A DNA stretch of 36,651 nucleotides, from positions 1-36,651 of the forward strand of contig NZ_NFGZ01000031.1 in NCBI RefSeq assembly GCF_002159175.1. The letters run 5' to 3'. Below, in pieces: positions 25,197 through 33,010 of the stretch (the stretch's first letter is position 1; every line of letters starts with the position of its first letter). Under the pieces are notes generated by a model. It worked only from the letters and a program-made list of their open reading frames with translations, was not told the DNA's origin and did no database searches. The position numbers and the translations under genes are program-made. This DNA is from Flavonifractor sp. An92. Lineage in GTDB: Bacteria > Bacillota > Clostridia > Oscillospirales > Oscillospiraceae.

Positions 25197-25283
25197 TTCC
25201 AAAACTCCTTCAAGCCGCGGTGCGGCGTGTTTTCAACCACACATTATAGAGCCTTTTTGCTCCTTTTACAAGGGGGAGAGCCG

Positions 25284-25319
25284 AAAAAGCGGGGAGCGAT
25301 GAGAACCATCGCCCCCCGC
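25284..25319 (-). terminator. Intrinsic terminator of the iorAB-paaK-ACT-aminotransferase operon
   Basis: On the - strand a 13-bp stem (25319-25307 with 25301-25289, one G-T pair) is followed by five T's (25288-25284). It begins 8 nt after the aminotransferase stop. Confidence 0.93.
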
Positions 25320-25326
25320 GGAGGAT

Positions 25327-26493
25327 TTAGGCCATTTTGGCCTTGATGTCGGAGAGGCGGTTGAGGGCCTCGTACAGGGTCTCGTCCTTCTTGGCGAAGT
25401 GGAGGCGCACGATGTTCTGCACGTTCTCCTTGAAGAAGGAGGTGCCGGGCACGGCGGCCACGCCCACCTTGCGGGTCATCTCCTCGCAGAACTCCACGTC
25501 GGTCTGCCCCTTCTTGAGGTAGGGCCCGATGTCGGCCAGGACGAAGTAGGTGCCCTGGGGGTCGGTGTAGGGGATGCCGATGTCGTCCAGACCCTTGGTG
25601 AAGAGAGCCTTCATGTGGGCGTAGTGGGCGGAGAATTCCTCATAGTAGGAGTCGGGCATCTCCAGACCCACCACGGCGGCCTCCATCAGGGGGGAGGGGG
25701 CGCCCACGGTGTTGAAGTCGTGGAACTGCTTGATCTTATCCATGATGGGCTGGGGGGCCAGGGCGTAGCCCAGACGCCAGCCGGTGACCGAGTAGGTCTT
25801 GGACAGGGAGGAGCAGGAGATGGTGCGCTCCCGCATGCCGGGCAGGGTGCTCATGTAGACGTGCTCGTGGGGGGCGTAGACGATGTGCTCGTACACCTCG
25901 TCCATGATGGCGTACACGTCGTACTTGATACACAGGGAGGCGATGAACTCCAGCTCCTGGCGGGTGAACACCTTGCCGCTGGGGTTGGAGGGGTTGCAGA
26001 TGAGGATGGCCTTCACGCCCTGCTTGAAGGCGTCCTCCAGCACCGCCCCGTCGAAGTGGAAGTCGGGGGGCGTCAGGGGGACAAAGATCGGCTCGCACCC
26101 GGCGAAGAGGATCTGGGCCTGGTAGTTCTCAAAGTAGGGGGAGAAGAGGACCACCTTGTCCCCGGGGTTGGTGACGGCGAAGAGGGTGTCCACCATGGCC
26201 TCGGTGGAGCCGATGGTGACCACCATCTCGGTGTCCGGGTCGGGGGCGTAGCCCATGAAGCGCTGGCACTTGCGGGACAGGGCCTGGCGGAAGTTGGGAG
26301 CGCCCATGGTGATGGGGTACTGGTGGGGGCCTTCAGAGACCACCTGGGCCAGCCGGTCCAGCATCTCCTTGGGGGGATCGAAGTCAGGGAAGCCCTGGGC
26401 CAGGTTGATGGCGTTGTTGGCGATGGCGATGCGGGTCATCCGGCGGATGACGGAATCGGTGAAATACTGGGTAACTTTGCTCAGTTCCTGCAT
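25327..26493 (-). CDS. PLP-dependent class I/II aminotransferase (probable aromatic amino acid aminotransferase)
   Basis: A 388-residue fold-type I aminotransferase. The PLP lysine is Lys232 in SSLSKTYSVTGWRLGY. NPSNPSG (about 168-174) and DEVYEH are the cofactor-ring motifs, and the late Arg in NIVRLHFA binds the substrate carboxylate. It is the last gene of the operon with iorAB, paaK and ACT. Context suggests it swaps arylpyruvates and aromatic amino acids, so it would be the final step if the operon makes Phe or Tyr. Substrate is inferred from context, not from sequence. ATG 26493 has GAGGTG 5 nt upstream. Confidence 0.85.
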   Translation of the reverse strand: MQELSKVTQYFTDSVIRRMTRIAIANNAINLAQGFPDFDPPKEMLDRLAQVVSEGPHQYPITMGAPNFRQALSRKCQRFMGYAPDPDTEMVVTIGSTEAMVDTLFAVTNPGDKVVLFSPYFENYQAQILFAGCEPIFVPLTPPDFHFDGAVLEDAFKQGVKAILICNPSNPSGKVFTRQELEFIASLCIKYDVYAIMDEVYEHIVYAPHEHVYMSTLPGMRERTISCSSLSKTYSVTGWRLGYALAPQPIMDKIKQFHDFNTVGAPSPLMEAAVVGLEMPDSYYEEFSAHYAHMKALFTKGLDDIGIPYTDPQGTYFVLADIGPYLKKGQTDVEFCEEMTRKVGVAAVPGTSFFKENVQNIVRLHFAKKDETLYEALNRLSDIKAKMA

Positions 26494-26512
26494 GACGCAC
26501 CTCGTAGTTTCA

Positions 26513-26947
26513 TTAGGAGTGGATGCCGAGCTCTTCGCCGGTGGCGGGGGCCATACCGGCGGCGGTGAGCACGGCGGTGAGCCGCTCGATGTCGTGGACC
26601 CGGAAGATCATGCAGGCGCGGCTGCTGACCTGTCCAAAGACGGAGTACATGTACTCCACGTCCATCTGCTCCTTTGCCAGCACGGCCAGGACCTTGGCCA
26701 GGGCGCCGGGCTCATCGGGGACCACCACGGCCACCACCGGCGTCATGGACAGGACGAACCCGTGCTCCAATAGCACGGTGGCCGCCTGCTGGGGCTGGTC
26801 CACGATGATGCGCAGCACGCCGTAGTCGCTGGTCTCGGCGATGTGGATGGCCCGCATGTTGATGCCGTTCTGGGACAGGACGGCGGTGATGTCGGCCAGC
26901 TGGCCGGCACGGTTCTCCAAAAAGACGGAAATCTGCTGAATGGCCAT
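26513..26947 (-). CDS. Tandem ACT-domain protein
   Basis: Encodes 144 residues made only of two ACT domains. The first starts ISVFLENRAGQLADI (about 6-20) with GINMRAIHIAE. The second starts VVVPDEPGALAKVL (about 74-87) with MDVEYMYS. ACT domains bind amino acids, so this is probably a feedback sensor or partner subunit for the neighbouring ligase, not an enzyme. Small ACT proteins beside paaK/iorAB are a recurrent arrangement in anaerobes. It lies between paaK (15-nt gap) and the aminotransferase (19-nt gap), with GAGGAGAAGG before ATG 26947. Confidence 0.88.
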   Translation of the reverse strand: MAIQQISVFLENRAGQLADITAVLSQNGINMRAIHIAETSDYGVLRIIVDQPQQAATVLLEHGFVLSMTPVVAVVVPDEPGALAKVLAVLAKEQMDVEYMYSVFGQVSSRACMIFRVHDIERLTAVLTAAGMAPATGEELGIHS

Positions 26948-26962
26948 AATCCTTCTCCTCTC

Positions 26963-28264
26963 TCAGATCTTGCGCTTGTCGATGACGCGGACCGCCTTGC
27001 CCTCGGAGCGGGTGATGGACTTGGGGGCCACCAGGCGCACCTTGGCGTAGATGCCCAGCATGGCCTTGAGGGCGGCGACCATCTGCTTCTCCCGCTGGGC
27101 CACCTGGCTCAGCTGGTCGGAGAACATCTCGGGGGTCATCTCCACCTGGACCTCCAGGGTGTCGGAGTTGTTGACCCGGTCCACGATAATCTGGTAGTTG
27201 GCCGAGTAGCCCTGCTCCAGCAGCACCGTCTCGATCTGGGACGGGAAGACGTTGACGCCCTTGATGATGAGCATGTCGTCGCTGCGGCCCATGGGCTTGC
27301 TCATCTTGATGTGGGTGCGCCCGCAGGGGCAGTCCTCGTGGTGGAGGACGCAGATGTCCCGGGTGCGGTAGCGCAGCAGGGGGAAGGCCTCCTTGGTGAT
27401 GGAGGTGAACACCAGCTCGCCCTTGGAGCCCTCGGGGAGGACCTCGCCGGTCTCGGGGTCGATGATCTCGGCGATGAAGTGGTCCTCGTTGATGTGCATG
27501 CCGTTCTGGGCGGAGCACTCGAAGGCCACGCCGGGGCCGGAGAGCTCGGTGAGGCCGTAGATGTCATAGGCCTTGATGCCCAGGGTGTTCTGGATGTCCC
27601 GGCGCATCTCCTGGCTCCAGGCCTCTGCGCCGAAGATGCCGGCTTTCAGGGGGATTTCATCCGGGGTGAGGCCCATCTCCTTCATGGTCTCGCCCAGGTA
27701 CGCGGCGTAGGAGGGCGTGCAGCACAGAATGGTGGCGTTCAGGTCCCGGATGAACATGATCTGCCGCTCGGTGTTGCCGGAGGAGGTGGGGATGGTGAGA
27801 CAGCCCACCTTGTGGGACCCGCCGTTGAGGCCTGGGCCGCCGGTGAAGAGGCCGTAGCCGTAGGACACCTGGCACACGTCCTCGTCGGTGCCGCCGGCGG
27901 CCACGATGGCCCGGGCGCAGCAGTCCTCCCACAGGTCGATGTCGTGCTGGGTGTAGAAGGCCACCACCCGCTTGCCGGTGGTGCCGGAGGTGGACTGGAT
28001 GCGCACACAGTCCTTCAGGGGCCGGGCCACCAGGCCGTAGGGGTAGGCCTCCCGCAGGTCGGCCTTGGTGACAAAGGGCAGCTTGTGGAGGTCGTCCACG
28101 CCCTTGATGTCCTCGGGGGTGAGGCCTTTCTCCTCCATCTTCTTGCGGTAATAGGGCACGTTGTCCCAGACGTTGCGCACCTGCTTGACCAGGCGCTCAT
28201 CCTGCCAGGCCCGGATCTGCTCCCGGCTGGCGCACTCGATATCCTTCTGATAATAACGCTCCAT
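26963..28264 (-). CDS. paaK: Phenylacetate--CoA ligase family protein
   Basis: Activates an arylacetate with ATP and CoA to the arylacetyl-CoA. The 433-residue length and the ANL motifs fit PaaK: STSGTTGKR is the phosphate loop (about 90-98), followed by YGLTELSGPG and RTRDICVL, with the C-terminal catalytic Lys in EGKAVRVIDKR. It is in one transcription unit with iorAB, whose substrate or product is the same arylacetyl-CoA. Run forward, it feeds IorAB for reductive carboxylation. Phenylacetate or indoleacetate specificity cannot be read from the sequence; the Phe T-box at the operon head favours phenylacetate. ATG 28264 has AAGGAG 10 nt upstream. Confidence 0.88.
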   Translation of the reverse strand: MERYYQKDIECASREQIRAWQDERLVKQVRNVWDNVPYYRKKMEEKGLTPEDIKGVDDLHKLPFVTKADLREAYPYGLVARPLKDCVRIQSTSGTTGKRVVAFYTQHDIDLWEDCCARAIVAAGGTDEDVCQVSYGYGLFTGGPGLNGGSHKVGCLTIPTSSGNTERQIMFIRDLNATILCCTPSYAAYLGETMKEMGLTPDEIPLKAGIFGAEAWSQEMRRDIQNTLGIKAYDIYGLTELSGPGVAFECSAQNGMHINEDHFIAEIIDPETGEVLPEGSKGELVFTSITKEAFPLLRYRTRDICVLHHEDCPCGRTHIKMSKPMGRSDDMLIIKGVNVFPSQIETVLLEQGYSANYQIIVDRVNNSDTLEVQVEMTPEMFSDQLSQVAQREKQMVAALKAMLGIYAKVRLVAPKSITRSEGKAVRVIDKRKI

Positions 28265-28286
28265 GGTTTACCAACTCCTTCTGCGC

Positions 28287-28862
28287 TCAGGCGTTGCGGC
28301 CCAGGTGAAAGGCCTTCCGGTTGAGCTCCAGGTATTTTTCCGGTACGCTGTGGGTGATGGCCTCCTGCCAGTCCTCCTCGGTCAGGTCCTCAAAGTAGCG
28401 GGACAGACGGCCCATGAGGACCAGGTTGACGGCCTTGGGGCTCCCGGCCTCCTCGGCCAGGGCCAGGGCGTCGATGGCGTCCACGTTCAGACCCACCCGC
28501 TCCATAATGGCGTCCAGATGGTCGGGGTAGTCGGCGGCGCCGGTGATGACGGGCATGGGGTTGATCTGCTGCTGGTTGGTGATGATGCGCCCGCCGGGCT
28601 TGAGGAAGGAGGTATAGCGGGCGGCCTCCATCAGCTCGAAGGAGACGATGAAGTCGGCCTGGCCCTCGTCAATGATGGGGGAGTAGACCTTGTCGCCGAA
28701 GCGGACGTAGGTGACCACGCTGCCGCCGCGCTGGCTCATGCCGTGGACCTCGGACACCTTGGTGTCGTAGCCCTTAGTGAGGAGGAGACGGCCCAGGAGC
28801 TTGCTGGCCAGCAGGGAGCCCTGTCCGCCCACGCCTACGATCATGATGTTTTTCGTCTCCAT
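28287..28862 (-). CDS. iorB: Indolepyruvate:ferredoxin oxidoreductase, beta subunit
   Basis: The gamma-type (POR-like) domain that completes the IorAB enzyme and binds the CoA/2-oxoacid side. The 191 residues start METKNIMIVGVGGQG, with the family's GVGGQGSLLASKLLG loop (about 10-24). SEVHGMSQRGGSVVTYVRFG (about 47-66) is the other hallmark. The start lies 2 nt after the iorA stop, with AGGAGG inside the iorA end, so the subunits are translationally coupled. An upstream start at 28931 would overlap iorA and lacks support. Confidence 0.94.
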   Translation of the reverse strand: METKNIMIVGVGGQGSLLASKLLGRLLLTKGYDTKVSEVHGMSQRGGSVVTYVRFGDKVYSPIIDEGQADFIVSFELMEAARYTSFLKPGGRIITNQQQINPMPVITGAADYPDHLDAIMERVGLNVDAIDALALAEEAGSPKAVNLVLMGRLSRYFEDLTEEDWQEAITHSVPEKYLELNRKAFHLGRNA

Positions 28863-28864
28863 GT

Positions 28865-30604
28865 TCAGCCCTCCTGGCCCCGCAGGGCGTCGAATTTGCA
28901 CAGCTGCTCGCACACGCCGCAGCCCACGCACAGGGTGTCGTCCACCTGCGCCTTGCCGTCCTTAACCGCGATGGCGGGGCAGCCGATCTGCATGCAGGCC
29001 TTGCAGCCCACGCACTTGTCCGCATTCACCTTCAAAGGCGGATTGTGCTTGACGTATTTCAGCAGCGCACAGGGACGGCGGGAGATGACCACCGAGGGCT
29101 CGTCGGCGGCGAGCTCCTCCTGGATGACCTTCCGGCAGGCGGCCAGGTCATAGGGGTCCACCACCGCCACACGGCGGATGCCCACGGCGTGGCACAGGCT
29201 CTCCAGGTCGATCTTGGTGCAGGGGTCGCCCTTCAGGTTGAAGCCGGTGGTGGGGTTCTGCTGGTGGCCGGTCATGCCGGTGATGGAGTTATCCAGAATG
29301 ATGACGGTGGCGTTGGACTCGTTGTAGGCGATGTTCACCAGGCCCGTGATGCCCGAGTGCATGAAGGTGGAGTCGCCGATGACGGCCACGGTCTTGTGGT
29401 CCCACTCATGCCCGGCGGCTTTCAGGAAGCCGTGGATGCCGGACACCGACGCGCCCATGCACAGGGTGGAGTCGATGGCGGCCAGAGGCGGGACCGCGCC
29501 CAGGGTGTAGCAGCCGATGTCGCCCAGCACGGTGAGACCCAGCTTGTGCAGGGTGTAGAAGAGGCCGCGGTGGGGGCATCCGGCGCACATCACAGGGGGA
29601 CGAGCGGGGATGGCCTCGTCCAAAGAGATGGTGGGCACGGGGGCGGCGCCCATGGCCTGGGCCACCTGATTCTGGCTCAGCTCGCCTAGGGGGGAGAAGT
29701 GCTCCTTGCCCTCCACGGTGAGGCCCAGATTGCGGCACTCGCCCTCCAGGAAGCCGTCCAGCTCCTCCACCACCACCAGGCGGTCCACAGCGGCGGCGAA
29801 ATCCCGGACGAGCTTGGCGGGGAGGGGCCAGACCATACCCAGCTTGAGGACCGGGTAGGTGTCGCCCAGGGCCTCCTTCACATACTGGTAGCTGGTGGAG
29901 GAGGTGAGGATGCCCACGCTGTGGTCCCGGCCGGGCTCCAGGCGGTTGACGGGCGCGGTCTCAGCCCAAGCGGCCAGATGGGCGGTGCGCTCCTCCACCA
30001 CGGGGTGGCGGCGCTTGGCGTTGCCGGGCATCATGATGTACTTGGCCCCATCCTTCTCATAGGGCTTGGGGGTGGGTTCCACCCGCTCGCCGGGCTCCAC
30101 CACGCTCTGGGAGTGGGCGATGCGGGTACACATTTTCAGCAGCACCGGGGTGTCGAACTGCTCGGAGAGGGTGTAGGCCAGCTTGGTAAACTGGAGCGCC
30201 TCGGCGCTGTCGCTGGGCTCCAGCATGGGGAGCTTGGCGGCCCGGGCATAGTGGCGGGAGTCCTGCTCGTTCTGGGAGCTGTGCATCCCCGCGTCGTCGG
30301 CCACGGCGATGACCAGACCGCCGTTGACGCCGGTGTAGGACAGGGTAAAGAGGGGGTCGGCCGCCACATTGAGCCCCACGTGCTTCATGCCGCAGAAGGA
30401 GCGCTTGCCCGCCAGGGACGCGCCGAAGGCGGTCTCCATGGCCACCTTCTCGTTGGGGGCCCACTCGGCGTAGAGCTCGGGGTATTTGGCGGCGTACTCG
30501 GTGATTTCAGTACTGGGAGTGCCGGGGTAGCTGGAGACAACGGAGCAGCCGGCCTCATAGAGGCCGCGGGCTACCGCTTCGTTGCCGAGCATGAGAGTTT
30601 TCAT
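28865..30604 (-). CDS. iorA: Indolepyruvate:ferredoxin oxidoreductase, alpha subunit
   Basis: The catalytic subunit for reversible interconversion of arylpyruvate + CoA + oxidised ferredoxin with arylacetyl-CoA + CO2 + reduced ferredoxin. The 579 residues contain the pyrimidine-binding part (LMLGNEAVARGLYEAG, SYPGTPSTEI) and the TPP site GDIGCYTLG with GDSTFMHSGITGL and an Asn-rich Mg loop. The C-terminus has two [4Fe-4S] motifs: CVGCKACMQIGCP (from 531) and CVGCGVCEQLC (from 559). ATG 30604 has AAGGAGGAG upstream. It is the first gene behind T-box 1. Confidence 0.95.
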   Translation of the reverse strand: MKTLMLGNEAVARGLYEAGCSVVSSYPGTPSTEITEYAAKYPELYAEWAPNEKVAMETAFGASLAGKRSFCGMKHVGLNVAADPLFTLSYTGVNGGLVIAVADDAGMHSSQNEQDSRHYARAAKLPMLEPSDSAEALQFTKLAYTLSEQFDTPVLLKMCTRIAHSQSVVEPGERVEPTPKPYEKDGAKYIMMPGNAKRRHPVVEERTAHLAAWAETAPVNRLEPGRDHSVGILTSSTSYQYVKEALGDTYPVLKLGMVWPLPAKLVRDFAAAVDRLVVVEELDGFLEGECRNLGLTVEGKEHFSPLGELSQNQVAQAMGAAPVPTISLDEAIPARPPVMCAGCPHRGLFYTLHKLGLTVLGDIGCYTLGAVPPLAAIDSTLCMGASVSGIHGFLKAAGHEWDHKTVAVIGDSTFMHSGITGLVNIAYNESNATVIILDNSITGMTGHQQNPTTGFNLKGDPCTKIDLESLCHAVGIRRVAVVDPYDLAACRKVIQEELAADEPSVVISRRPCALLKYVKHNPPLKVNADKCVGCKACMQIGCPAIAVKDGKAQVDDTLCVGCGVCEQLCKFDALRGQEG

Positions 30605-30633
30605 ACATTCTCCTCCTTGTGGGGGCGGGAAAG

Positions 30634-30912
30634 AAAAAATCCTCTGCAAGAACCGAAGCTCTTGCAGAGGACGAGAATTTCCCGTGGTACCACCTCAATT
30701 TGCCGCGCAAGCGCGGCCTCACGGGGTACGGACATACCCCAGGCGCTGTATCGGGCGCGCCCGTCGCTGCTTACTTGGGAGGATCTCCCGTTGGGCAGGC
30801 CGCTCGGGAAGGAATTCGAAACGGGGCTCCGCCTGCCTCACACCAGCCGACAGGTCTCTGAAACGGAAGGGGCGTTTCTACTTGGTTCCGTCATCGCGTT
30901 GTGTTATGATAC
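30634..30912 (-). promoter_or_regulatory. T-box riboswitch 1, specifier UUC (Phe), upstream of iorA
   Basis: Read on the - strand. The Stem I loop-E motif AAGTA is opposite GAA (30817-30815), followed by specifier TTC (30814-30812), between the helices GAAACG/CGTTTC and GGAA/TTCC. AGAGA and GCTGGTG blocks follow the expected order. The T-box core GGTGGTACCACGG is at 30694-30682; its UGGU would pair with a discriminator A, as in tRNA-Phe. The terminator is a 12-bp stem (30671-30660 with 30651-30640) plus six T's (30639-30634). Uncharged tRNA-Phe should allow read-through into iorA. Confidence 0.92.
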
Positions 30913-30918
30913 CCCTCA

Positions 30919-30947
30919 ACTCTACCACTTTTGTCTGCTAAAGTCAA
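30919..30947 (-). promoter_or_regulatory. Promoter of the iorAB operon (T-box 1)
   Basis: TTGACT (30947-30942), 17 bp, TAGAGT (30924-30919) on the - strand. Both boxes and the spacing are identical to those of the T-box 2 promoter. Confidence 0.85.
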
Positions 30948-31010
30948 GGGAGCTTTGTGAAATTTACACGACTCCGGACGATACAGGGGAGCGCGCCTTG
31001 TGTCCGGTGT

Positions 31011-32648
31011 TCAGTTGGAGATCTGCACCTCCACCAGGCGGCCCTGGCAATAGCGCTCCCGGAGCGCGGGCTTTTCGATCTTTCCGGTGGGATTGCGGGG
31101 GACAGAGGCGAAGATGATGCGGCGGGGGCGCTTGTAGCGGGGTAGCTCCTGACAGAAGTCGTTGATCTCCTCGGCGGTGCAGGAGGCGCCCTCCTTGAGC
31201 TCGATGATAGCGGCGGCGATCTCGCCCAGACGGTGGTCGGGCAGGCCGATGACCGCCACATCCTTGATCTTGTCGTGCCGGCGGAGGAAGTCCTCGATCT
31301 GCACGGGGTAGAGGTTCTCGCCGCCGGAGATGATGACGTCCTTTTTGCGGTCCACCAGGTAGTAGAAGCCATCCTCATCCACCTCGGCCATGTCGCCGGT
31401 AAAGAGCCAGTCGTCCTTCAGAACCTCGCTGGTGGCCTCGGGGTTCTTGTAGTAGCACAGCATCACGCCGGGGCCCCGGACGCACAGCTCGCCCACCTGG
31501 CCCTGGGGGACTTCATCGCCGTGCTCGTCCACCACCTTGGCCTCCCAGAGGTAGCCGGGCTTGCCGATGGCGCCCACCTTGTCGATGTGCTCCACCCCCA
31601 GATGGACGCAGCCCGGGCCGATGGACTCGGAGAGGCCGTAGTTGGTGTCATAGGCGTGGTGGGGGAAGATCTTCTTCCAGCGGTGGATGAGGGAGGGGGG
31701 CACCGGCTGGGCGCCGATGTGCATGAGCCGCCACTGGTCCAGGTAGTACTCGTTCAGGTCCACCCGTCCGCTCTCGATGGCGTCCAGGATGTCCTGGGCC
31801 CAGGGGACCAGGAGCCAGACGATGGTACATTTCTCCTCAGTGACGGTGCGGAGGATCCACTCCGGTGACACGCCCCGGAGGAGCACCGCCTTGCTGCCGC
31901 TGAGGAGGGAGCCAAACCAGTGCATCTTGGCGCCCGTGTGGTAGAGGGGCGGGATGCAGAGGAATACGTCGTCCCGGGTCTGGCCGTGGTGGTGCTGCTC
32001 GGTGAGGCACGAGGCGAAGAGGGCCCGGTGGTTGTGCAGAATGGCCTTGGGGAAGCCGGTGGTGCCGGAGGAGAAATAAATGGCGGCGTGGTCGTGGGGC
32101 TCCAGCAGCACCGGAGGGGCCTCGCAGGAGCAGTAGCTCACCATCTGCCGGTAGTCCTCCGCGAAGGCGGGGAGGGGATTGCCCACGAAGAAGAAGTACT
32201 TCACCGCCGTCAGCTGGGGGAGGATGGGCTCCAACCGCCCGGTGAACTCGGGACCGAACACCAGCACCTCCACGTCGGCCAGGTCCAGACAATAGGAGAT
32301 CTCGTCGGAGGAGTAGCGGAAGTTGAGGGGCACGGCCAGACACCCGGCCTTCAGGATGCCGAAGTAGATGGGCAGCCACTCCAGGCAGTTCATCAGGAGA
32401 ATGCCCACCTTGGCGCCCCGCTTGATCCCCCGGCTGAGCAGGAGATTGGCGAAACGGTTGGCTTTCTTGTCAAAGTGGCCCCAGCTCATCTCCCGGCGAT
32501 AGGGGGCGTCGGGGCGGCTGCGCTCGATGAGGCTGAAATCCCGCCAGGTCTTGGCCTCGTCCCGCTCCCGGGAGGGGTTGATCTCCACCAGGGCGATCTC
32601 ATCCCGGTAGAGGCGTGCATTGCGCTCCAGAAGTTCCGTAATGACCAT
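31011..32648 (-). CDS. AMP-forming acyl/aryl-CoA ligase (candidate 4-hydroxyphenylacetate-CoA ligase)
   Basis: A 545-residue ANL-superfamily acid-CoA ligase, larger than and unlike the PaaK next door. The phosphate loop is YFSSGTTGFPKA (191-202). YGLSESIG, YLVDRKKDVIISGGENLYP and the C-terminal catalytic Lys in PRNPTGKIEKP are all present. It is a single-gene unit behind T-box 2, whose specifier reads Tyr. On that ground the substrate is proposed to be 4-hydroxyphenylacetate; sequence alone would allow a medium- or long-chain acid. ATG 32648 has AAAGGAG 9 nt upstream. The start at 32957 would run through the T-box and is rejected. Confidence 0.85.
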   Translation of the reverse strand: MVITELLERNARLYRDEIALVEINPSRERDEAKTWRDFSLIERSRPDAPYRREMSWGHFDKKANRFANLLLSRGIKRGAKVGILLMNCLEWLPIYFGILKAGCLAVPLNFRYSSDEISYCLDLADVEVLVFGPEFTGRLEPILPQLTAVKYFFFVGNPLPAFAEDYRQMVSYCSCEAPPVLLEPHDHAAIYFSSGTTGFPKAILHNHRALFASCLTEQHHHGQTRDDVFLCIPPLYHTGAKMHWFGSLLSGSKAVLLRGVSPEWILRTVTEEKCTIVWLLVPWAQDILDAIESGRVDLNEYYLDQWRLMHIGAQPVPPSLIHRWKKIFPHHAYDTNYGLSESIGPGCVHLGVEHIDKVGAIGKPGYLWEAKVVDEHGDEVPQGQVGELCVRGPGVMLCYYKNPEATSEVLKDDWLFTGDMAEVDEDGFYYLVDRKKDVIISGGENLYPVQIEDFLRRHDKIKDVAVIGLPDHRLGEIAAAIIELKEGASCTAEEINDFCQELPRYKRPRRIIFASVPRNPTGKIEKPALRERYCQGRLVEVQISN

Positions 32649-32687
32649 CGTGATTGGCTCCTTTCTCCGGCTTGCTGCCGCTGCGGC

Positions 32688-32975
32688 AAAAAAAGAAGTC
32701 CTCCGCGGAACGAACGTTCCAGCAGAGGACGAGAAATTCCCGTGGTACCACCTCAGTTTGCCGCCTGCGGCGGCCTCACGGGGCACGGACATGCCCCAGG
32801 CGCGGTATCGGGCGCACCCGTCGCTGCCTACTTGGGATTTTGGAAAACCCCGTTGGGCAGGCCGCTCGGGAGGGTATTGGGCCGCCGCACCGCTCCTGCC
32901 TTGCACCGTCCGGCAGGTCTCTGAAAGCGGGGAGCGGGGCCTACTTGGCTCCGTCATCGCGTTGCTCCTGTGTTG
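32688..32975 (-). promoter_or_regulatory. T-box riboswitch 2, specifier UAC (Tyr), upstream of the acyl-CoA ligase
   Basis: Read on the - strand. The layout is the same as T-box 1. AAGTA lies opposite CAA and specifier TAC (32876-32874). The lower helix is GGAG/CTCC, where T-box 1 has GGAA/TTCC, a compensatory change. The T-box core GGTGGTACCACGG is at 32752-32740. The terminator stem GTCCTC/GAGGAC, continuing through GGAAC/GTTCC (32730-32698), ends with seven T's (32694-32688) after a short spacer. The UGGU core suits a discriminator A, as in tRNA-Tyr. Confidence 0.92.
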
Positions 32976-32981
32976 CCATAC

Positions 32982-33010
32982 ACTCTAGCACTTTTAAGCG
33001 CTAAAGTCAA
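32982..33010 (-). promoter_or_regulatory. Promoter of the acyl-CoA ligase gene (T-box 2)
   Basis: TTGACT (33010-33005), 17 bp, TAGAGT (32987-32982) on the - strand. Confidence 0.85.

Follow-up and report, generated by a model that had tools for sequence, protein, structure and literature searches.

Genes for an indolepyruvate/arylpyruvate:ferredoxin oxidoreductase (IorAB) that stand beside genes for aryl-CoA ligases raise the question of whether the enzymes break down aromatic amino acids or help to make them. The question is posed here by a gene cluster of Flavonifractor sp. An92. All elements of the cluster lie on the minus strand of contig C25, the stretch of 36,651 nucleotides (nt) analysed in this study (the window), in a genome of 3.49 Mb that is 99% complete. 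The cluster consists of two units, lig2 and iorA-iorB-paaK-tandem ACT-aminotransferase, each headed by a T-box leader. Our analysis suggests, with a probability of roughly 0.8, that the cluster salvages arylacetates as one branch of the supply of aromatic amino acids, and that a promoter palindrome and the T-boxes gate it.

T-box leaders of the two units

In the order of transcription, a promoter, a Tyr T-box, a terminator and lig2 are followed by a second promoter, a Phe T-box, a terminator, iorA, iorB, paaK, the gene for a tandem ACT-domain protein, an aminotransferase gene and a closing terminator. The T-box leader of lig2 (32722..32966) scored 97.0 bits with Rfam family RF00230 and E 1.9e-10 with our own Stem I model, and its specifier is UAC (Tyr) at 32876-32874. 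The leader of iorA (30664..30903) scored 109.9 bits and E 3.9e-10, with the specifier UUC (Phe) at 30814-30812. Both leaders exceed the Rfam gathering score of 93, and the covariance match covers Stem I and the antiterminator in both. The terminator hairpin of the Tyr leader (32698..32730) was identified by sequence and fold and is not in the pattern-scan list; that of the Phe leader (30639..30672) was identified by pattern scan and fold. By Rfam match, fold and pattern scan, both leaders have a complete Stem I, antiterminator and terminator. UGGU is present in both antiterminators, which we take to fit an A73 discriminator. The Phe and Tyr leaders are 84% identical (201/239 aligned bases) and thus look like copies differing in specifier.

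Specifiers were read by a strict rule, as the three bases ending five bases before the motif NGAGC. The Rfam T-box family has 17 matches in the genome, the window pair included, and the rule gave the expected codon in 14 of the 15 others. Twelve of these leaders were read by script (valS, asnB, ileS, ilvB, tyrS, glyS, leuA, metQ-like, pheS, thrS, cysE and alaS), and those of trpB and a Trp-type ABC transporter, where the motif is NGAGG, were read by eye. The one exception is a low-scoring leader near hisS (27.5 bits), whose specifier is unreadable. The genes behind the genome's T-boxes were named by eye, and the other readable T-boxes head genes for synthetases, biosynthesis or uptake. When a Stem I model was trained on 13 T-boxes of the genome, the window pair not among them, it recovered both window leaders. 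The original prediction that both units are T-box-headed, with specifiers UUC (Phe) and UAC (Tyr), is upheld by the Rfam scores and by a rule that fits 14 other leaders.

Gene content of the cluster

The gene lig2 (31011..32648, with the start taken as ATG at 32648; the lig2 protein queries started one codon upstream) encodes an AMP-forming acid-CoA ligase with PF00501 and PF13193, and its orthologues stand beside iorAB. This is the second acid-CoA ligase that had been predicted just upstream of the operon. Judged by its context, it is probably an arylacetate-CoA ligase. In the second unit, iorA (28865..30604) encodes the alpha subunit of the oxidoreductase and matched TIGR03336 above cut-off, and iorB (28287..28856) encodes the beta subunit and matched NF005325 above cut-off. 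The closest named relative of IorA, among the best 80 of at least 592 loci, is that of Candidatus Flavonifractor merdigallinarum (88% identity). The paaK-type phenylacetate-CoA ligase (26963..28264), also AMP-forming, matched TIGR02155 at 1e-153 (512 bits, below the cut-off of 646) and PDB 4r1l at E 6.2e-127. The tandem ACT-domain protein (26513..26947; PF19571; PDB 2f06, E 1e-25) is a possible Phe/Tyr feedback sensor, and the class I/II aminotransferase (25327..26493; PF00155) is a candidate arylpyruvate aminotransferase. Family searches thus place an aryl-acid:CoA ligase, IorAB and an aminotransferase in one cluster, with PaaK below its curated cut-off. In the same searches none of the six cluster proteins proved to be an acyl kinase or a phosphotransacylase. 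Intergenic gaps of 8-22 nt from iorA to the aminotransferase, a terminator-like site after the last gene (25289..25319, pattern scan) and the family matches agree with the prediction that iorAB, paaK, the ACT gene and the aminotransferase gene form one operon.

Promoter palindrome

The promoter-like sites of lig2 (32982..33010) and iorA (30919..30947) both read TTGACT-17-TAGAGT by pattern scan and sequence. In both, a palindromic operator-like site lies between the -35 and -10 hexamers, at 33005-32984 for lig2 and 30942-30921 for iorA. Four exact matches to the palindrome were found in the genome: at lig2, at iorA, in the promoter of the DAHP synthase-tyrA operon (in which a carboxypeptidase-like gene stands between the two named genes) and at an ABC transporter with a binding protein closest to TrpX, though below the family cut-off. 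The number expected by chance is 0.0065 (15 fixed bases, equal base frequencies). Since the pattern was derived from the window and its relatives, only the DAHP synthase-tyrA and transporter matches are independent. Sites with two mismatches in the same genome number 8, against 8 for the reversed control, and therefore only the four exact sites carry weight. Quite apart from the T-boxes, the palindrome held in common with DAHP synthase-tyrA links the cluster with the supply of aromatic amino acids.

Between the palindrome and DAHP synthase-tyrA on contig C8 of the same genome, a leader peptide with 6 Tyr and 2 Phe in 24 residues was observed (L193:1124-1198). Tyr/Phe-rich leader peptides followed by hairpins were also seen at the DAHP synthase-tyrA or tyrA loci L239, L240 and L242, and none was seen in L241. 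A Tyr/Phe-rich leader peptide with hairpins is a candidate Tyr attenuator.

Conservation in relatives

Two sets of relatives, overlapping in part, were analysed. The named set comprises the 80 best of at least 592 loci that have a related iorA. The order set was drawn from 248 genomes, each at least 95% complete, and consists of the 75 that carry lig2 (74 fetched loci and the window). Some loci are cut by contig ends, and L114 duplicates L050 and L113 duplicates L061 (identical lig2). T-boxes were counted in both sets with our own Stem I model. The combination of T-box and iorA or ligase that the original prediction proposed to seek in related genomes was found: 47 T-boxes stand ahead of lig2 or iorA, two in the window and 45 in relatives (28 in 26 of the 80 named loci and 17 in 15 of the 74 fetched loci). 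Under the strict rule 20 of the 47 give UAC and 16 give UUC, 36 in all. All five loci with two T-boxes (the window, L021, L022, L109 and L111) have Tyr at lig2 and Phe at iorA. At L127 and L142 the T-box heads a symporter-lig2 unit. Five fetched stretches without iorA (L123, L124, L126, L127 and L131) also have a T-box ahead of lig2, where the reading UAC needs a looser spacer. Rfam, run on L024-L027 and L107 as the only T-box-free loci, found no T-box in them at E 0.01; some T-box-free loci carry the palindrome alone.

Other T-box matches in the relatives' stretches include Val in L089, Trp in L074 and L148, and some UAC. A Tyr T-box at L042:11242-11554 lies directly downstream of the gene cluster (the module) and ahead of tyrS (named by eye), and T-boxes in the same position in L051 and L067 also read UAC. 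Two rumen metagenome-assembled genomes labelled Chloroflexi (L092 and L097) carry the module with a Tyr T-box, which points to transfer or to mislabelled bins.

Analysis of gene content in the 80 named loci revealed lig2 in 62 (52 upstream on the same strand), iorB in 80, paaK in 67 and the ACT protein in 56. A sodium:solute symporter gene stands between lig2 and iorA in 30 of the 80. Family PF00474 was tested on the L025 copy, and the other copies were assigned by similarity to it. Phenylacetate permeases are known in the PF00474 family. The presence of an uptake gene within the operon is more in keeping with a substrate that is consumed than with a product that is disposed of, although carriers of this type can be reversible. 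Some Lachnospiraceae loci, L025 among them, have a gene for a PaaI-like hotdog thioesterase directly upstream of lig2 (L025:3229-3702), with the palindrome ahead and no T-box. PaaI matches occur in 20 of the 80 named loci.

The tree of lig2 from 37 T-box-bearing proteins (28 Tyr, 9 Phe) requires at least five switches between Tyr and Phe, three of them forced by strong branches, and the figures are the same for the 29 strictly read rows. The specifier switches often yet stays within Phe and Tyr, which suggests that these two amino acids are the products. The iorA leaders of L093, L098 and L151 form a separate group, located 619-828 nt ahead of iorA; this hints at a second recruitment of a T-box, an uncertain grouping given its long branches.

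The palindrome also recurs in relatives. In the fetched loci, 47 of the 54 sites scoring at least 15/22 lie less than 900 nt upstream of module genes, with or without T-boxes. A longer pattern gave 64 sites in 46 chosen genomes against 1 for the reversed pattern; 58 of the 64 are distinct, because site coordinates are identical in G011 and G239 and in G015 and G280. In eleven of the 46 genomes a site precedes tyrA or DAHP synthase-tyrA, five of them read (L239-L243, genes by eye) and six inferred from coordinates. Four of the eleven (G113, G139, G157 and G163) have no lig2 match. Among 18 sites that were opened, five precede tyrA or DAHP synthase-tyrA, one a lone aminotransferase gene, one a lyase-like gene and one yerC-his; the remaining ten, all with 3 mismatches, head unrelated genes. 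In G239 a copy of the aminotransferase with 78% identity, encoded elsewhere in the genome, stands behind an exact palindrome match.

A T-box of 87 bits, below the gathering score, with the specifier UAC was observed on the minus strand of L227 (3005-2761), in G163, a member of the same genus. Together with a palindrome-like site (3 mismatches) it heads a gene for a beta-eliminating lyase nearest tyrosine phenol-lyase/tryptophanase. This lyase-like enzyme perhaps makes Tyr from phenol.

Direction of the pathway

The sequence establishes the leaders with their specifiers and terminators, the palindromes, the gene content and its conservation; the direction of the pathway, the substrates, the role of the ACT protein and the binding of a protein to the palindrome are inferred. 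In the mechanism proposed here, phenylacetate and 4-hydroxyphenylacetate would be imported and would be activated by PaaK and lig2 with ATP and CoA. IorAB, supplied with reduced ferredoxin, would carry out a reductive carboxylation to phenylpyruvate or 4-hydroxyphenylpyruvate, and transamination of these arylpyruvates would give Phe or Tyr. At the promoter, a putative regulator predicted to bind the palindrome would control the cluster in common with DAHP synthase-tyrA and the TrpX-like ABC transporter. In the leaders, the T-boxes would let transcription of lig2 continue only when uncharged tRNA-Tyr is bound, and that of the iorAB operon only when uncharged tRNA-Phe is bound. Allosteric feedback through the tandem ACT protein could be a further control.

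According to a passage in PMC7778990, a T-box is opened by uncharged tRNA, and therefore shortage of Phe or Tyr should switch these genes on. A passage in PMC13285125 holds that AMP-forming ligases favour acyl-CoA synthesis and that the Bacteroides indolepyruvate oxidoreductase (IOR) is hence perhaps biosynthetic, as in methanogens. The T-box logic, the absent phosphotransferase and kinase, the AMP-forming ligases and the palindrome together make the reductive, biosynthetic direction much likelier than fermentation. The starvation-induction logic of the original prediction thus gains support from specifiers confined to Phe and Tyr, from the palindrome common to DAHP synthase-tyrA, from the symporter seen in 30 of the 80 named loci and from the missing kinase and phosphotransacylase.

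Several observations weigh against arylacetate salvage. T-boxes occur only at a minority of loci, at least 26 of the 80 named loci and at least 16 of the 75 lig2 loci of the order, window included. An operator score of at least 15 near a module gene is seen at 41 of 154 loci (17/41 with a T-box, 24/113 without). The strict rule fails in 11 of the 47 module T-boxes (ACA 5, ACG 1, UCA 3, no NGAGC motif 2). When the spacer may vary by one base, these 11 read UAC in eight and UUU/UUC in three (L093, L098 and L151), beside conserved GAA/AA; the Rfam alignment agrees with this looser reading in all four given to it (L098, L131, L142 and L151), and the other seven were read by us. On the loci given to it Rfam found nine module leaders, eight above the gathering score and L151 below. 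An aminotransferase is present in just 12 of the 80 named loci, the window's own cluster has no symporter, and the best family matches of lig2 are generic fatty-acyl/acyl-CoA ligases. IorAB is reversible, and work cited in PMC13285125 has the IOR of Bacteroides thetaiotaomicron participating in the conversion of Phe to phenylacetate.

The shikimate branch adds to this side of the balance. Genomes of the 248-genome sample that match lig2 at E 1e-150 were classed as module-bearing. Of the 75 in this class 10 lack prephenate dehydratase, as do 21 of the 173 others (p = 0.84); the tyrA domain is missing from 11 of 75 and 20 of 173 (p = 0.53), and both from 6 of 75 and 18 of 173. With missing rates alike in the two groups, the idea that the module replaces pheA/tyrA found no support. 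Both genes are present in the Flavonifractor genome, which indicates a route that supplements the shikimate pathway and does not replace it. The check on pheA/tyrA suggested with the original prediction was therefore uninformative. Exactly one of the two genes is lost in 9 of 75 genomes with the module against 5 of 173 (Fisher p = 0.013), an excess given little weight, since it was found post hoc and shrinks to 6 against 5 genera. Among 50 genomes of iorA loci, 11 are without prephenate dehydratase, 10 without the tyrA domain and 3 without chorismate synthase. G013, G039 and G040 have neither prephenate dehydratase nor the tyrA domain and keep chorismate synthase, in stretches uncut by a contig end (their other aro genes were named by eye); they may be plain auxotrophs or incomplete bins. 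In G040, open reading frames resembling a second iorA and iorB (by eye) were seen beside the aro cluster (L102:30-2341).

The alternative that survives best, in our view an improbable one, is oxidative fermentation, in which Phe and Tyr would be converted to arylacetates with a yield of reduced ferredoxin and energy and the T-boxes would be incidental. IorAB is often discussed in such a role (for example in a passage of PMC5817080), and the report of a Bacteroides IOR in phenylacetate formation from Phe, as given in PMC13285125, points the same way. However, opening on uncharged tRNA would be the wrong moment for burning Phe and Tyr. The oxidative cluster described in PMC13285125 employs a phosphotransferase and a kinase, and neither is among the six proteins studied here; the arrangement of the HpdDEFG-HpdJ-HpdK-type oxidative Stickland cluster, with phosphotransferase and kinase beside the oxidoreductase, is likewise absent from them. 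The palindrome common to DAHP synthase-tyrA also argues against fermentation.

A still less probable alternative is that arylacetyl-CoA or arylpyruvates feed another product, such as a cofactor, signal or secondary metabolite, tied to Phe/Tyr status. It would suit the 35 of 74 fetched lig2 stretches that show no iorA, and also the PaaI-like thioesterase gene that some Lachnospiraceae loci without a T-box have upstream of lig2. Against it stand the aminotransferase in the operon and the 78%-identical G239 protein with the same operator, and inspection of the window's cluster showed no genes that would serve another product. That the T-boxes are inactive relics, or that lig2 is an unrelated fatty-acid ligase merely adjoining the operon, is very improbable: the generic ligase families among the best scores of lig2 and the many lig2/iorA loci without a T-box would fit, but both leaders are structurally complete, specifiers stay within Phe/Tyr despite switching, and lig2 has a T-box even in the five stretches without iorA (UAC by the looser spacer).

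A wider proposal can be made, to which we give even odds. Gut Clostridia would have a hitherto undescribed two-layer aromatic amino acid regulon, with a 22-bp palindromic operator as one layer and Phe/Tyr T-boxes or Tyr-rich leader peptides as the other. Alongside the shikimate pathway, they would routinely make Phe and Tyr from cross-fed arylacetates and, in a sister species, perhaps from phenol through the tyrosine phenol-lyase-like enzyme under Tyr T-box control.

Comparison with known systems

In Firmicutes, the RF00230 T-boxes that head tyrS, pheST and genes of aromatic biosynthesis or transport share the architecture found here, with Phe/Tyr specifiers, a terminator and induction by uncharged tRNA, whereas the genes controlled here are acid-CoA ligases and IorAB. 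In the Bacillus cereus group, T-boxes precede the tyrosine biosynthesis operon and phenylalanine-4-hydroxylase, as stated in PMC2494555, the main text of which, so far as covered, has no mention of phenylacet-, indolepyruvate, iorA or paaK.

The assimilation of arylacetates is known from the physiology of rumen bacteria. Assimilation by IOR is proposed for methanogens and Bacteroides in a passage of PMC13285125. The present cluster resembles the methanogen and rumen systems in combining an aryl-acid:CoA ligase with a reductive IorAB and subsequent transamination, and differs from them in its two ligases, tandem ACT protein, T-boxes, palindrome shared with DAHP synthase-tyrA, and occurrence in gut Clostridia. 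The iorAB-paaK operon of Geobacter is listed in PMC2700814 among biosynthetic operons with a conserved 5' sequence, as here. Unlike the present case, it is filed there under tryptophan, and the 5' sequence of about 90-100 bases is not called a T-box in the part covered; the table of that paper places a T-box at leuA, a different operon.

The operators of HisR (YerC, TrpR family), as described in part of PMC9413887, are likewise palindromes in promoters of amino acid genes. The motif TTTA-N6-nAAAgtg within the window palindrome resembles HisR cacTTTA-N6-TAAAgtg (PMC9413887), and the resemblance of the palindrome to the HisR/TrpR-family consensus cacTTTAnnnnnnTAAAgtg is partial. In contrast to HisR operators, the window site is a 22-bp palindrome, and the targets seen are mostly aromatic, with no histidine focus. 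No palindrome was found upstream of the one yerC/hisR gene of the genome (C8:22993-23253). In G016 a yerC-like gene is preceded by a site with 3 mismatches, which may be chance.

Among the open-access papers searched, many of them judged by title, none was found that joins T-boxes to iorA, paaK or arylacetate assimilation, though an entry in a supplement table may exist. Besides PMC2700814, the subject search matched PMC12786550, which to judge by its title deals with T-box inhibitors, and phenylacetate is unmentioned in the main texts of PMC3766115 and PMC7778990 as far as these were covered. This agrees with the original impression that the T-box-regulated cluster is new. T-boxes and arylacetate assimilation are each known; on searchable evidence, their combination and the palindrome shared with DAHP synthase-tyrA are new.

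A starvation-sensing RNA offers a genetic reading of the direction of IorAB and aryl-CoA ligases, which in gut anaerobes is usually guessed from chemistry. Phenylacetate and 4-hydroxyphenylacetate are precursors of host uremic metabolites. If the salvage reading is true, carriers of the cluster turn both compounds into protein, which changes the genome-based assignment of arylacetate production and use. The cluster also supplies candidate bacterial genes for the arylacetate assimilation physiology of the rumen, and the palindrome may mark an aromatic regulon.

Downstream neighbour

Beyond the cluster, a promoter-like site (10/12) was observed at 25243-25271 of the window, between the operon terminator and gltX. 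The iorA unit ends at the terminator 25319-25289, and gltX is therefore probably a separate unit.

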